A DNA stretch of 64,000 nt from Metallosphaera yellowstonensis MK1 (GTDB lineage Archaea > Thermoproteota > Thermoprotei_A > Sulfolobales > Sulfolobaceae): positions 541,740-605,739 of the forward strand of contig NZ_JH597770.1 in NCBI RefSeq assembly GCF_000243315.1, given 5' to 3'. Every line of letters starts with the position of its first letter. Within the stretch, counting starts at the first letter, position 1. This document shows, one piece after another, positions 716 through 63,527 of this stretch. A program made the translations under genes and the position numbers. Below the pieces are notes generated by a model. The model saw nothing but the letters and a program-made list of their open reading frames with translations, was not told the origin of the DNA and did no database searches.

Positions 716-784
716 CAGAACTCCTAACGATATATCTTAATTTGTTTAAAAGTTTAAGTTTATCATTCGTAAGGGGTTTGGGCT

Positions 785-2058
785 TCATAGGATTTCATAA
801 TATTTAATATCAATCCTCAGCCGTTGGGCTTCACCGGGGTCACGGGGCATTGCCCCATTCATACCCCTCCGCCCCCTTAACAGGGTAACCCCAACCCACC
901 TACTCCCAGTGGGAGTGAGAAAGAGGTGGGGAAACCCGCACACCTTGAGGTATATGTTGAGAGATGCGTTCAATTGCCTATCTAGGGTGAACCCGCACCT
1001 CTCACACCTGAAAGTCCTGCCGACCTTTCGGGAAACCCGTCCACATCTGGGGCAGGACTTGGATGTGAGGTGAGGGTTCACCTCCTTCACGAAGGAACCA
1101 TAAATGGGAGCCTTATATTTTAGAACGCGATGAACAGTCCTCCAAACGGTCCTAGAAATCTTCTTAGACAGCTTGTCATCAGCATCCTCAAACATCTCTT
1201 GCTTATTCAACTTTTCAACAGCAAAAGTCGTCACAGGATACATCTCCAGCAACTTATTCACGAACTTGTGAACGTAATCCAGCACGCGATTTCTTTCGCG
1301 GTGGGAGTACTTCCTCGACAACACTTTCCCCTTCCTACCGTGCTTTGAAGCGAAGGACTTGATTCTACCCCTCTTCAACTCCATCCCAAACTTAAGGCTG
1401 TACAACTCCCTCATGAAAAACGTGACGAACTTCTCGCCGTCGTAAATGTCCAGCGTGTAGAGGTTACTGTCGATTGCTAGATAGTCTAGGGGAGTAAACC
1501 AGGGTAATTTGTAACGGAATGGTAGGTGAACCTTGTCCTCCTTTATCACGGGCTCACCCAGTTCTAACCCTTTGACCCTCCGTGAAAACCAGGAGTGGGA
1601 TCATGAGAAGGTAATGTACTCATACGGTCTTACAGTAATCCTCACACTCTCACCCTCAACCTTCCTCAGAGTAGACTTAACCCTTACGTAAACTCTCTTC
1701 AGTTATAGGTTTCCTCAGTGAAGCTCTCCCCTTTTCAGCCCTCCTCTTCCAGCTCCTCAACACGGAGTAAGCGTCGCTTATTGCCTTATCCACGTAGTGG
1801 GAAGCTAGGACGTTGACCTCCTCCAGTTCATCCCTCAACGTCCTGTAAACCCCTTCTTCTCGGGGAGGGTTATCTTGACCTTCGTGAGGACTTTCTTACC
1901 CCTCCTGATCTCTCTCCTCTCAACCTTGATCCTCTCCCACAACCAGTCTAAAGCCCTCTGCAGTAGGACTCTGTAGTTCTCCAGCAGTACCCTGCTCTCC
2001 TCCCCCTTATCGTTCTTCAGGGAGTAAGTTAGGTAGACGTACTCCTCCTCTGGCTGAA
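785..2058 (-). pseudogene. tnpB: Broken tnpB (RuvC-like RNA-guided nuclease of IS607)
   Basis: The intact 3' portion (785-1549, 254 codons) keeps the RuvC-like catalytic residues: Asp27 in LAIDSN, Glu112 in AVEKLNK and Asp190 in LDRQLNASLN, plus the zinc ribbon Cys166/Cys169/Cys182/Cys185 (numbering within this piece). Upstream, the N-terminal region is recognisable in other frames, for example EEEYVYLTYSLKNDKGEE near 2050 and ASHYVDKAISDAYSVLRSWK near 1800, but several frameshifts and stops between about 1550 and 1870 break it. The catalytic residues survive but the N-terminal recognition half does not, so it is probably a pseudogene. The 3' end of such genes normally also encodes the guide RNA scaffold. 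Confidence 0.8.
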
Positions 2059-2063
2059 ACTAT

Positions 2064-2633
2064 TTAAGCCTCAATTTCCTCGACGCACTCCCTCACCTTT
2101 TCGTATTTATGACTTCTCATTCCGTAGAGTTTTCCGCTGAATACCAATATAGAGATTTCTTCTATTAGCTCTTGCTCGGGTGTTTTGTCTCCCTATTTAG
2201 AACGACTATCTCGCAGTTGTGTGATTTGCACACTTCCTCTACTATCTCGAAGCCGAACCTCACCGGTCTGTCTGGGTAGGCTATGATTACTTTTGATACT
2301 TCGTTATTCAGCATCATCCTTAACAACTTGGTGAATCCCTTCTTCCTCACGTTCAACGAAGATCCCACGTCTGTTATCACTTGGTCGTCTTTAACGTTCT
2401 CCTCTAGGTACTTCACTTGGTTTACTAAATCGTCTTTTCCTGTGTGTTCGATACCCTAGCGTATAATGCCACTTTCCTCCTCTTGACAATTCCCATCAAT
2501 TCTACGTCCTCTTCTCTGAACCTCCACTTTCCGCTCTGTAATATCACGGGTTGATGTAGCCTTTCTTTACGTATTCTCTGAGTGTTGCGTATGAAATTCC
2601 TAAGCGTTGGCACACTTCTTTAGGTTTCAGCAT
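2064..2633 (-). pseudogene. tnpA: Broken tnpA serine recombinase of IS607
   Basis: From ATG at 2633 the minus strand reads MLKPKEVCQRLGISYATLREY, the MerR-like helix-turn-helix that starts IS607 transposases. A stop codon near 2546 and a small deletion follow. The serine-recombinase catalytic start (ALYARVS) appears in a second frame near 2455, and the rest (DLVNQVKYLEE, then DQVITDVGSSLN and VIIAYPDRPVRFGFE) in a third frame. A final frameshift near 2180 leads to the usual C-terminal tail ending at 2064. The total span of about 190 codons matches the family length. At least three lesions are visible, so it is inactive. Confidence 0.85.
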
Positions 2634-2778
2634 TGTATAAAAGTTTATGATGAAATAATATAAATTTTACGATTTATCTGAAACTGTTGTCAACGGCTTT
2701 TAGCTCTATTGGGTTTTAACCACTAATCACATTCAGATTATCGACCCTGACTTCACCGTTCAGGTTATGTCGGCATCA

Positions 2779-59920: not shown

Positions 59921-60301
59921 TTAGCTGACCAGGTAAGCGTAATTAAGCACGATCTCCTCATTCTGGTTAACCTCGACGTGTATCTTGTAATGGAGTTGTG
60001 TTACGAAGACGGTGTAATTACCAGCGGGTAAGAGGAACATAGCTACGCCGTCAGGTGCAGTGAAGTTTTGATGAAATCCGTTACCGTAGACCCAAACTAC
60101 TGCGTCTCCAAGGGGCTGCGTCCCGCCAAAATAGCCGTAATTGATGAGAACCTTCACCTTTAGGGTGTAGTACCCCCCATTACTGCTTCCCCCGAGTGGC
60201 TGGACATCCACTTGAGTTTTGTAGGAGGAGGCTACCACTACTCCGCCTATCGTCAGAAGGAGCACGACCGCCATGGCAACTAGGAGGAGACCTTTCCTCA
60301 T
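59921..60301 (-). CDS. Secreted beta-sandwich protein
   Basis: 126 residues with a signal-like or anchor helix (4-25) ending in VVASSYK, then a beta-rich domain resembling Ig-like/carboxypeptidase-regulatory repeats (LKVKVLINYGY, DAVVWVYGNGFHQNFTAPDGVAMFLLPAGNYTVFV). Contains an N-x-S/T site. Likely an extracytoplasmic, possibly pilus- or surface-associated protein; family uncertain. Confidence 0.6.
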   Translation of the reverse strand: MRKGLLLVAMAVVLLLTIGGVVVASSYKTQVDVQPLGGSSNGGYYTLKVKVLINYGYFGGTQPLGDAVVWVYGNGFHQNFTAPDGVAMFLLPAGNYTVFVTQLHYKIHVEVNQNEEIVLNYAYLVS

Positions 60302-60352
60302 GATAGGGGGAATTGAGAAGACTAATATTTAAGTTGAATCAATATATCGGAC

Positions 60353-60901
60353 GTGTTCGATAGGTTCTTGGATGGTCTAAGATACTCCCTCAGGAACGAG
60401 AGACCCATACTTAGGAGGTACCTGATTCTAGGGGCCTTCGACGGAGTACTCGTCTCACTGGGCATACTCGTATCGTCATCGTTTGCTGGCGCTTCGGACA
60501 AAGTCATAACCATCTCCATTGTGACCGCGCTGGTGGCAGTAGCCATCTCTTCCGCTTGGAACTCACTCATCGTCGAACTCAAGGAGAGAAGGCTGGAGTT
60601 CGCCAGGCTGGAAAAGCAGATGATGAAGAGTCTGAGGGGATCCATTTATGATTACGGAATGAGGATGACAGTAGTCCTCTCAGTCCTGGCTCACGGCGTC
60701 TCGCCGTTCCTAGGACTGTTATCGCTCTTAGCTTTCCACTTAACAGGGAGCACAGTATACAGTGCGGCGATCTCCCTAGTGGAACTCCTGGGGCTAGGGT
60801 TCGCCTACGAGGGTAATACCAGCGATAAGATACGTTCCGGTCTATTCATAGCTCTTGGAGGAGTCATGACTCTAGTCATCTCCGTACTGTTGGCAAGGTG
60901 A
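60353..60901 (+). CDS. VIT1/CCC1 family transporter
   Basis: 182 residues from GTG 60353. Five hydrophobic helices with the family start LILGAFDGVLVSLGILVSSSFAG and the charged loop ELKERRLEFARLEKQMMKSL between helices 2 and 3, where these proteins bind Fe/Mn. Shorter than plant VIT1; transports Fe2+ or Mn2+ out of the cytoplasm. AATATTTAAGTTG precedes it. An interrupted gene follows after 7 bp. Confidence 0.82.
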   Translation: MFDRFLDGLRYSLRNERPILRRYLILGAFDGVLVSLGILVSSSFAGASDKVITISIVTALVAVAISSAWNSLIVELKERRLEFARLEKQMMKSLRGSIYDYGMRMTVVLSVLAHGVSPFLGLLSLLAFHLTGSTVYSAAISLVELLGLGFAYEGNTSDKIRSGLFIALGGVMTLVISVLLAR

Positions 60902-60908
60902 TGATGAT

Positions 60909-61001
60909 GTGACGCTCTCAGAAGATCCTAAAGTTGAGTTCGACGAGTATAGAGACACTTCCCCTCATTGGTTCTCGTCGATAGGGTTTGGGCTTCTTTG
61001 A
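60909..61001 (+). pseudogene. 5' fragment of a gene cut by an IS607-type end
   Basis: From GTG 60909 a frame of 26 native codons (TLSEDPKVEFDEYRDTSPHW and on) runs into the GGG of the mobile-element end at 60984 and stops five codons later at TGA 60999-61001. Composition is strongly protein-like and the codon use matches the neighbours, so this is the beginning of a real gene, probably co-transcribed with VIT1, whose remainder is gone. Its product is not recognisable from this piece. Confidence 0.5.
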
Positions 61002-61200
61002 ATTTTCATGAATTTGTATCAATCCTAGGCCTTGAGCTTCACCGGAGTCAGGGCTGGCCCGTTCACCCTACCCCCCAGCGGGATGACCCCATTCAACGCA
61101 GTGTTACCGCCCTTTGGGAAACCCGCACATCCCTGACGCACTTGCCGTCACACCTATCGGGATATTCCCACCTCATCCGGTGTGACTGTATTTTTATTTG
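60984..61200 (-). mobile_element. Solo right end of an IS607-type element
   Basis: GGGTTTGGGCTTC at 60984-60996 and the next roughly 65 bp align with the right end of the element at 774 (ATCAATCCT, then CTTCACCGG and GTCA blocks in the same order). Further in, GGGAAACCCGCACA near 61118 matches the tnpB 3' part. The reading frame is destroyed and the rest of the element is absent. This end would have encoded the TnpB guide-RNA scaffold. Inner boundary is vague. Confidence 0.7.
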
Positions 61201-61254
61201 CCTATAGAGTACGTAAACCTCGCGGTTTATCGGAAGTTGACAACGGCTCTCAAG

Positions 61255-61440
61255 TCACCACGGTGTTACTCCATCGCAACCATACCTGGAGAAAAGCGTC
61301 ATACATGCTCTCCCATCTCCAGACTTACATCTCTCACATAAGCTGCCGTAGTCGCTCACGGTGAGTTCGTCACATACGAGAGAGCCACATATTTCCACAC
61401 AGGTCCTGTCGCTCAATTTGATGTAGCATTCTACATTCAT
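61255..61440 (-). CDS. Cys-rich small protein
   Basis: 61 residues with eight cysteines ([19 protein letters not shown], then CERC, GRACM and YGCDG). Spacing suggests metal clusters or zinc binding; no family recognised. GTTTAAGA at 61463-61470 on the minus strand sits at the TATA distance from ATG 61440. The region next door is mobile-element debris, yet the promoter and cysteine pattern support a real gene. Confidence 0.5.
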
Positions 61441-61479
61441 TGGAGATCACTTTTTAAACTTCTTAAACAATTTATACCC

Positions 61480-62040
61480 ATGTCGAAACTCCTATCCAGG
61501 CGTGATAGACAGGAGGAAATCAGAAAAGGATTAGAGGGCATGATAAAGGAGATAGAGGGCGAGGATTTAAGAGTAGTCACTTTCATGGAATATACCGAAC
61601 CTTCCCCTCCGGTTAAGCCTAAGATCATCAAATTTTCTAATGTGCTACCGTTACTGAGGAGATTAGCTGAGATGGGTAGAGTTGAGAAAGGAGTAGCAAA
61701 GGTAATGTTCTATTCCCCCAGTACGGGGAGGTCTAGGGGACTGACACCAACCATGATGGCAGGTTTCCAGTATCTGGCCCCTGGTGCAAGAACTGAACCT
61801 CACTCTCATAACATGGCCTCGATATACATTGTGGTGAAAGGAGAGGGAAGTTCCATAATAGGAGGAGAAGTCTTCAGCTGGAGTGAGGGAGACGTCTTTG
61901 TAGTCCCAGCCAACATTGAGCATAGTCATATGAATGAGGGGCAGGAGGAGGCTATACTGTTCGATGTTACAGACTCAGGATTATTGGAGAACATGGGGAT
62001 ATTGGAGTTCAGGCAAGAGATGAGTGAGGTCAAGAAGTGA
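61480..62040 (+). CDS. Cupin-domain protein
   Basis: 186 residues; a helical N-terminus and a C-terminal cupin barrel with motif 1 as [23 protein letters not shown] and motif 2 as [17 protein letters not shown], supplying His/Glu metal ligands. Possibly a gentisate-dioxygenase-like or small-molecule-binding single cupin; reaction unknown. TTTTTAAACT at 61451-61460 is about 25 bp from the ATG, again leaderless, and is interleaved with the promoter of the Cys-rich gene. Confidence 0.8.
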
Positions 62041-62327
62041 ACGGAAAAGGGGTTTAAGGCATTACAGGTGAGCCGTGAGAGCTTCAATTTTTCCATTTTA
62101 GAGAGGAGAAGTTCCTTAAAGGATAAAGATGGACTACCTGAGCTTAAACACTTTTTCCCAAACTCTTTAGTTAAATCAATGGTACTCCTTCATGGATGCT
62201 TAAAGGAACCGTAGGATTAGTGTCCGCTGTCCCTTATCCTAAACCTTTCATGTGAAGGATCAGCGGGTTCTGACTCCAGTGAGAGGAGTTCTCTGTAACA
62301 CTCTATCCCTACTATGTAGGTAAACTA

Positions 62328-62347
62328 CCCCGCCCTCACGGACGGGG
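62328..62347. repeat. Terminal hairpin, tnpB 3' side
   Basis: CCCCGCCCTCAC-GGACGGGG; imperfect 8-bp stem. Between it and the tnpB stop (about 35 bp, including GACGGGGCTTTGGGGTT) lies the expected 3' part of the guide RNA and the guide itself would begin outside the element end. Confidence 0.6.
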
Positions 62348-62381
62348 CTTTGGGGTTTCCAGTGGCCTTCACGACGCACCT

Positions 62382-63527
62382 TCATGTCCCCTTCGGGGTG
62401 TTTACGTACCCCCGACCCGTACCTCTCGTTAAGGCACGGGCTACGTTAATAGATGCGTTCAGGTCACGGTTGTACTTGAGACCGCACTTAGGACAGCGAT
62501 ATTCCCTTCCTTCAACGTGGGTAACGTACCCACACCTGTGGCAAGTCTTGGACGTATTCTTAGGGTCTATGTATACCACCTTGATTCCTTGTATCTTAGC
62601 CTTGTACTCCACCATCTTCTGCAGTTTCCTGAAGGGTAAGGAGTGAAACCTCCTATTGAGTTTCTTACCCTTCTTGAAGTTCTCTCTAATACCCGTGAGC
62701 TTCTCCATCACTATCACAGGAGAAGGGAACTGTTTTACGTATTCCACAATCTCCTTGGAGATAACGTGAAGCTCGTGGTTCACAATCCTTCTCTCTCTAC
62801 CTCTCAGCCTCTTGAACACGTCCAACCTTCTCTTTTCCTGTAGTTTCCTCCTGATGTTGAAGTGCCTGTGCCTGACTTCCTTGATTCTAGATCCCTTGAA
62901 GAAGGTGCCCTTTGTCGGTTTACCGACTAGTGCCACTACTGTGGCTAAGTTCTTTTCACCCAGGTCTATCCCTATAGGTGTTTGTGGTTCAAAATCCTTG
63001 AATGGTTTTTCAAGGGTGAAGTAGGCGTACCACTCTCCGTCTCTCTTTACGAGTTCAACCTGTTGCAAAGACCACTCGCCGTCGTCAGAGAGGGCGTCAA
63101 CTATCATCTGTCTTTGTCTTTCCCCGAACTGTACTGGATACCACACACCATCACCGTCCAGCTTGAGGTACAACCAATAAGGTGTTAACTTAGTGTCCCT
63201 CCTCACGAGCTTGAAAGCACGGTAGTTCACTCGCATTGATACTTCATGCACGTGAAATTCTCTTCCCTCATTAGCCTTAACCAGTTCTACTGCTTTGTCC
63301 CTAGCAGTCTGCGTGAGAGTGGAAGATAGACCGAACCTTCTTCTCGCCTCCTTGTACGCTTTCTGTTGGAGAAGATTCTTATCCTTGATCTTAAAGGAAG
63401 CGAAGAACTTCACAGCTTTTAGGTACTTCTCTAGAACGACGTTCAGTTTGTGTCTCTTCTCTTTGTTAGGGTTCAGAATCTTCCCCTGTACTGCTACTTT
63501 AACTTCTGCCCTCAGGGAACGTCCCAA
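62382..63527 (-). CDS. tnpB: TnpB, RNA-guided nuclease of the IS200/IS605 element
   Basis: 381 residues, uninterrupted and of normal TnpB length. RuvC-like catalytic residues Asp188 (GIDLGEKN), Glu275 (VMEKLTGIRE) and Asp355 (NRDLNASIN); zinc ribbon Cys329/Cys332 and Cys345/Cys348. The N-terminal half carries the usual wedge and recognition parts. TnpB proteins use a guide RNA made from the element's own 3' end to cut target DNA beside a short target-adjacent motif. All active-site residues are intact, so it may be active. No promoter of note beyond TTTTATATTTTGA at about 63531-63543. Confidence 0.93.
   Translation of the reverse strand: MGRSLRAEVKVAVQGKILNPNKEKRHKLNVVLEKYLKAVKFFASFKIKDKNLLQQKAYKEARRRFGLSSTLTQTARDKAVELVKANEGREFHVHEVSMRVNYRAFKLVRRDTKLTPYWLYLKLDGDGVWYPVQFGERQRQMIVDALSDDGEWSLQQVELVKRDGEWYAYFTLEKPFKDFEPQTPIGIDLGEKNLATVVALVGKPTKGTFFKGSRIKEVRHRHFNIRRKLQEKRRLDVFKRLRGRERRIVNHELHVISKEIVEYVKQFPSPVIVMEKLTGIRENFKKGKKLNRRFHSLPFRKLQKMVEYKAKIQGIKVVYIDPKNTSKTCHRCGYVTHVEGREYRCPKCGLKYNRDLNASINVARALTRGTGRGYVNTPKGT

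Follow-up and report, generated by a model that had tools for sequence, protein, structure and literature searches.

A two-ended IS607-type MITE with a putative TnpB guide RNA gene in a Sulfolobaceae genome

The element at 60984-61247 and its surroundings

The minus strand of the window (the whole 64,000-nucleotide stretch of DNA that was analysed) carries a 264 bp IS607 element at 60984-61247. The element is non-autonomous (a MITE) but complete, having both a right end (RE) and a left end (LE). The source genome, G000, is 2.82 Mb in size, comes from a thermophilic archaeon and belongs to the same family as S. islandicus. No tnp ORFs are present in the 264 bp of the MITE, while its RE and LE both match those of full-length elements, one of which, disrupted, is found in the same window. 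The relevant features are as follows.

60984-61247, minus strand: MITE, RE at 60984, LE at 61247; the predicted RNA reads toward 60984
60964-60983, minus strand: predicted guide, host flank TATCGACGAGAACCAATGAG past the RE, placed from the sequence and the ISXfa1-type boundary rule (PMC10711439)
60984-61125, minus strand: omega-RNA-like core scaffold, eight helices in the model (covariance model R1, model positions 1-159)
61116-61131, minus strand: conserved box GATGTGCGGGTTTCCC, 16/16 match in the window copy
61147-61186, minus strand: 5' hairpin P0, GTCACACC ... GGTGTGAC, folding as an 8 bp stem
61211-61218, minus strand: weak TATA-like box GTTTACGT, 24 nt upstream of P0
61219-61247, minus strand: IS607 left end GCCGTTGTCAACTTCCGATAAACCGCGAG, matching the LE of full-length elements
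774-2698, minus strand: full-length but disrupted IS607 element, LE 1925 bp from RE, R1 score 168.6 bits
785-1549 and 2165-2416: TnpB and TnpA fragments of the 774 element (Pfam TNB/OrfB_IS605 and Resolvase)

The original prediction had described this locus as a solo right end. Its boundary at 60984 is exact to the base: the alignment with the RE of the 774 element, which spans 94-98 positions, is 77.6% identical over 98 columns (E 5e-10). The loss of tnpB and tnpA coding DNA was also recognized correctly. The unit, however, is not solo, but continues to 61247, where it terminates in an IS607 left end (..TTTATCGGAAGTTGACAACGGC), and it has a two-ended twin at C19:62924-63187 of the same genome (L009:425-688), 98.9% identical over 262 bp (60986-61247). 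Beyond both ends the two sequences diverge fully and the flanks are unrelated. Since the identity with the twin runs throughout and the far end is a known IS607 LE, the unit was defined as a two-ended 264 bp MITE. A diverged copy of the scaffold (65 bits) lies ~1 kb from the twin in the opposite orientation (L009:1630-1772, G000:C19:64129-64271).

The IS607 exchange dinucleotide is GG/CC (end rule from PMC6188088). A G at LE −1 precedes CC in 54/59 junctions and C occupies RE +1 in 52/59, the window copy having T there. In IS607 TnpB guide RNAs a fixed right-flanking nucleotide is taken into the scaffold (PMC10711439), an observation consistent with the frequent C at RE +1; by analogy with ISXfa1, the first base(s) of the flank TATCGACGAGAACCAATGAG may belong to the scaffold. 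The 3'-terminal CCCAAACCC of the window core sits at the RE. The 16-mer box GATGTGCGGGTTTCCC recurs in many Sulfolobaceae genomes, and its GGGTTT is complementary to the 3'-terminal AAACCC.

The order of the neighbouring genes (upORF182, a small Cys-rich protein, a cupin protein) is conserved in four congeners, the small protein being weakly matched in some. In G003 and G004 the first two genes are separated by ~45 bp and the element is absent. The corresponding spacer of G002 holds an IS607 MITE too (L080:1086-1365, G002:C1:1656096-1656375), in the same orientation; this insertion looks independent, because its internal structure and junctions differ from those of the window MITE. A 381 aa TnpB of a different subfamily is encoded at 62382-63527, ~1.1 kb from the MITE, and the guide-RNA model gave zero matches at its end. 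A search of 60000-62400 against Rfam 15 returned a chance-level match only (E 0.8, below cut-off), and viral contigs contained zero exact matches to the MITE pattern.

Related places in G000 number 40 by DNA search (E below 1e-3) and 64 by the covariance model. Two-ended elements of ~250-300 bp occur in ten genomes (G000, G001, G002, G004, G010, G013, G017, G019, G027 and G029), with uneven LE clarity among the members. Several Sulfolobaceae lineages share one plan: an LE with a TATA box, ~24 nt, P0, the folded core, the RE and host flank. The anatomy first proposed for the locus held for the scaffold part and had overlooked the left end, the TATA-like box, the 5' hairpin and the multi-copy, multi-genus class. 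Besides the window MITE and its twin, near-identical pairs at different sites include L086/L124 (99.6%) and L194/L195 of G004, which are 100% identical over exactly 274 bp. Such pairs at separate sites demonstrate that the MITEs are mobile. In G004 there are also ~14 similar tnpB copies (L180-L193), most with open frames; together with L194/L195 these are a recent burst.

Of 25 MITEs no longer than ~300 bp, 23 retain 146 bp or more on the RE side, and the LE side has a median of ~70 bp. In the IS607 family the motifs bound by TnpA sit no farther than ~60-80 bp from an end (PMC6188088), so transposition by itself does not account for so long an RE.

The RNA fold and hairpin P0

Covariance model R1 was built from 20 full-length elements, with the window copy not included. 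In the window it has two hits and no more, each on the minus strand: 774-938 (168.6 bits) and 60984-61125 (62.1 bits, E 1.6e-15). The suggestion that the retained stretch is where a TnpB guide-RNA scaffold is expected is borne out. R1 matches 32/32 short-element sources searched, the window copy among them. The window copy scores 62 bits against up to 175 in others, contains numerous non-standard pairs when aligned to the model, and folds as a single sequence no better than its shuffles (z −0.44).

Consensus folding of full elements, of MITEs and of both together gave a closely similar plan each time: GGGUUU paired with the 3'-terminal AAACCC, stem P1, a branched domain, GGGCU/AGCCC and GGAUU/AAUCC. 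In the long-range GGGUUU/AAACCC helix, which comes from consensus folding, most pairs either do not vary or vary on a single side. The model matches and the covariation tests support a conserved scaffold fold that ends at the RE.

The tnpB frame of most full elements ends 12 bp short of the RE. Because it overlaps the scaffold region, conservation in full elements alone was not counted and protein-less elements were tested instead. A plain sequence alignment of the 20 full elements and seven MITEs contains 15 double-changed pairs compared to 8.9±1.8 in shuffled alignments (0/500), and 4-8 in slid controls. A MITE-only MAFFT alignment made without the model gave 8 pairs versus 6.4 shuffled (score reached by 53/500, cells by 4/500). 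Since MAFFT does not correctly place P1 and the apical stems, which are variable, R1, trained on full elements only, was used to align the sequences. The R1-fitted alignment of 33 rows has 31 double-changed pairs (14.2±2.2 in controls) and the core of the MITE-only clade that includes the window copy has 24 (12.7±2.1; 0/500), though these strong figures rest on R1-fitted rows, which are biased toward the model, and the unfitted MITE alignment is much weaker. A sequence-only model, R2, was set aside, as its scores are not comparable. The proposal survived the test for compensatory changes, double-sided pair changes being present.

Nearly every MITE carries a hairpin, P0, upstream of the core. 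In full elements P0 lies inside the zinc-ribbon codons of tnpB and is separated from the core by a linker; in MITEs this linker is wholly or partly deleted and P0 is retained. The P0 loop resembles the zinc-ribbon codons of full elements (CCAGATGTGGATGGGTTTCCCGAAAGG), whose homologous region also folds as a hairpin (AAGUCCUGCC/GGCAGGACUU). The arms are radically different among lineages with complementarity preserved: GUCACACC/GGUGUGAC in the window copy, GUCACAUC/GAUGUGAC in L014, CUUGCUACC/GGUAGCAAG in G002, GUCUUGCC/GGUAAGAC in L107, and AUGCCAG/CUGGCAU versus AUGCAAG/CUUGCAU in two G010 copies. In a sequence-only alignment of 30 MITEs the P0 covariation score is 0.409 versus 0.200±0.025 (0/500). 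Slid controls matter here, since related sequences can beat shuffles without any structure; they reach at most 0.274. Within the MITE-only clade of the window copy the score is 0.233 versus 0.150 (5/500 shuffles; slid controls at most 0.143). Judged from these alignments, compensatory changes appear to preserve the fold in protein-less MITEs, with P0 as the clearest case.

Nine tnpB copies of G000 share a 4-nt deletion in the zinc ribbon, by which GGTCGGCAGG became GGTAGG or GGCAGG. These copies, full-length or partial, occupy different sites (L020, L021, L025, L026, L030, L031, L037, L045 and L157). The deletion breaks the tnpB frame and leaves the P0 arms complementary; it seems that a TnpB-dead lineage multiplied while keeping the RNA.

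The sequence GTGAAGTTTATAT is present in the LE. The tnpA ATG of full elements lies ~25 nt beyond the LE TATA box, a spacing as in the leaderless archaeal mRNA of Sulfolobales. In MITEs the place of the tnpA start is occupied by P0, with the TATA-like box ending 23-30 nt before P0 in 20 of 31; those without a good TATA or P0 include L141, L147 and L150. The window TATA, GTTTACGT, is weak, while many relatives have GTTTATAT. In L107 the joint falls at the tnpA start codon, the LE running up to TTATACAA and P0 following directly. With the TATA box ~24 nt before P0, transcription would be predicted to start at P0.

Parent elements and origins

Full elements are ~1.9 kb long and bear tnpA and tnpB. 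One of them, L027 (contig C4 of G000), has an open TnpA frame of 176 aa, whose closest solved relative is the ISC1904 TnpA (3ilx, E 7e-60), and an open TnpB frame of 394 aa related to ISDra2 TnpB (E 6e-13), with the RuvC residues D, E and D readable in the translation. Over its whole length L027 aligns at 85.5% with an element of S. islandicus plasmid NC_012624, which is annotated as ISSis5 family, IS607-like. Candidate TnpB suppliers for the MITE are few, which counts against the guide-RNA reading: a single clearly intact TnpB of the MITE subgroup was found among the elements examined. Judged by its reading frames, an intact TnpA+TnpB element of the MITE's group is present in G000.

In an RE tree, most branches of which are modestly supported, MITE and full-element labels change five times compared to 19.2 in shuffles, and at least three changes are forced by well-supported branches. 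The clade of the window copy spans three genera with its 17 MITEs, and eight MITEs form a G002/G013 clade. The L107 MITE branches among full elements of its own genome, and the core of the identical 274 bp MITEs of G004 is ~95% identical to full elements of that genome. A common plan in spite of separate origins speaks for selection on the RNA, although part of this pattern could be mimicked by gene conversion between copies.

A guide-RNA-only MITE and its alternatives

The anatomy of a guide-RNA MITE is well supported. We consider it probable, from the sequence comparisons above, that the window element is such a MITE, mobilized in trans by TnpA and relying on a TnpB that is likewise supplied in trans. 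It would represent an ISC1904/ISSis5-like IS607 transposon cut down to its mobility ends and a guide-RNA unit. TnpA from intact elements elsewhere in the genome would recognize both ends and move it. The TATA box that serves the leaderless tnpA in full elements sits ~24 nt before P0 in the MITE, so that a transcript would start at P0, cross the scaffold and pass the RE into host DNA; the new flank as the source of the guide, as originally predicted, was judged right. TnpB made elsewhere would bind this omega-RNA in trans and cut guide-matching DNA, the presumed target being either the empty site left after excision or a sister chromosome that lacks the insertion; repair of the cut would restore the MITE. 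The MITE would thereby exploit both parent proteins. We infer transcription, binding, cutting and benefit from this anatomy and from TnpB biology; use of TnpB in trans is plausible, since G000 holds an intact partner element.

Compared with other copies, that of the window is rather degenerate, making its own activity uncertain, and may be weak or dead. That it is a dead relic of a once-functional guide-RNA MITE is a possibility with perhaps one chance in three, compatible with the preferred explanation for the family: its 62-bit score, non-standard pairs and weak TATA suggest decay, but its P0 and box are perfect, the twin indicates a fairly recent move, and errors in the scaffold may be tolerated.

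It is unlikely that we are dealing with an ordinary MITE, in which only the ends matter, for TnpA, and the scaffold is passive ancestry with no RNA function. Mobility is evident, TnpA alone suffices for IS607 transposition (PMC6188088), and the fold of the window copy itself is unremarkable, all as expected for such an element; against this, the RE is retained far beyond the end needed, P0 is kept though the linker is deleted, arms are rewritten yet complementary in protein-less elements, and a plan with similar TATA-P0 spacing recurs in separate lineages. Somewhat less likely still is an RNA that is functional and does not guide cutting, for instance acting as a decoy or regulator that titrates TnpB or TnpA, or having a host role. 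The fold does appear to be under selection and many degenerate copies would suit a decoy, but the 3'-terminal helix beside a variable flank is kept, as predicted for a guide RNA, and the copies are at unrelated sites and so share no host target. The first proposal of a stranded right end, the remnant of a decayed full element and perhaps transcribed from external sequence, accounts for the RE match and lost coding DNA, and truly truncated copies do occur in G000 (e.g. L043, L158), but with an LE, a near-identical twin with the same two ends and an empty orthologous spacer in G003/G004 it is very improbable.

For the family as a whole, we give about even chances to the broader claim that Sulfolobaceae harbour self-contained guide-RNA-only transposons that arose several times and hijack an IS607 transposase and an RNA-guided nuclease. 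If so, TnpB would be a shared public good and guide-RNA genes would evolve as selfish units, with P0 changing fast but compensated. The TnpB system would split naturally into separately spreading protein and guide units, a step toward a CRISPR-like division of labour. Whether TnpB-guided cutting aids transposon survival would become testable, as guide-only MITEs with and without intact folds could be compared in one cell, and natural compact scaffolds for thermophilic TnpB would be at hand.

The window MITE has its ends and RE fold in common with the ISC1904/ISSis5-type IS607 transposons of Sulfolobales, and differs from them in having neither tnpA nor tnpB and in the loss of the linker, by which P0 is joined to the core. 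As with the TnpB omega-RNA/reRNA of ISDra2 and ISXfa1, its predicted RNA derives from the RE and has the guide in the flank. The putative pairing of its 3'-terminal bases with a distant upstream segment would resemble the pseudoknot of ISDra2 (−5..−3 with −103..−105, PMC10097598). The ISDra2 and ISXfa1 RNAs, however, come from the tnpB transcript or overlap tnpB, whereas the MITE RNA is predicted to be encoded separately, under a promoter of its own, and to carry the 5' hairpin P0. TnpB processes its own mRNA into omega-RNA (PMC10278001), and archaea, including two Sulfolobales species, express IS200/IS605 RNAs also as circles (PMC12558985).

Guide-RNA MITEs of IS607 elements were not described in the literature searched, a set without key subscription papers. 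Stand-alone trans-acting omega-RNAs and PATEs, guide RNAs or transposon ends of IS200/IS605 elements that lack the protein gene, were reportedly described by Altae-Tran in 2021 and Meers in 2023. These are IscB or Y1-transposase elements, whereas the window MITE is an archaeal IS607 element, further distinguished by its covariation and promoter geometry. Short, protein-less MITEs mobilized in trans are already known in Sulfolobales: Sulfolobus SMN1 and SM3A are set apart from the window MITE by the parents named for them, ISC1733 and ISC1058 respectively (PMC3718332). A second repeat of ~60 bp, CAGCAGTTAT...AACTGCTG, has inserted into the L010 MITE (L010:2585-2665) and adjoins MITEs at L009, L018, L022 and L040; it is possibly another tiny MITE family.
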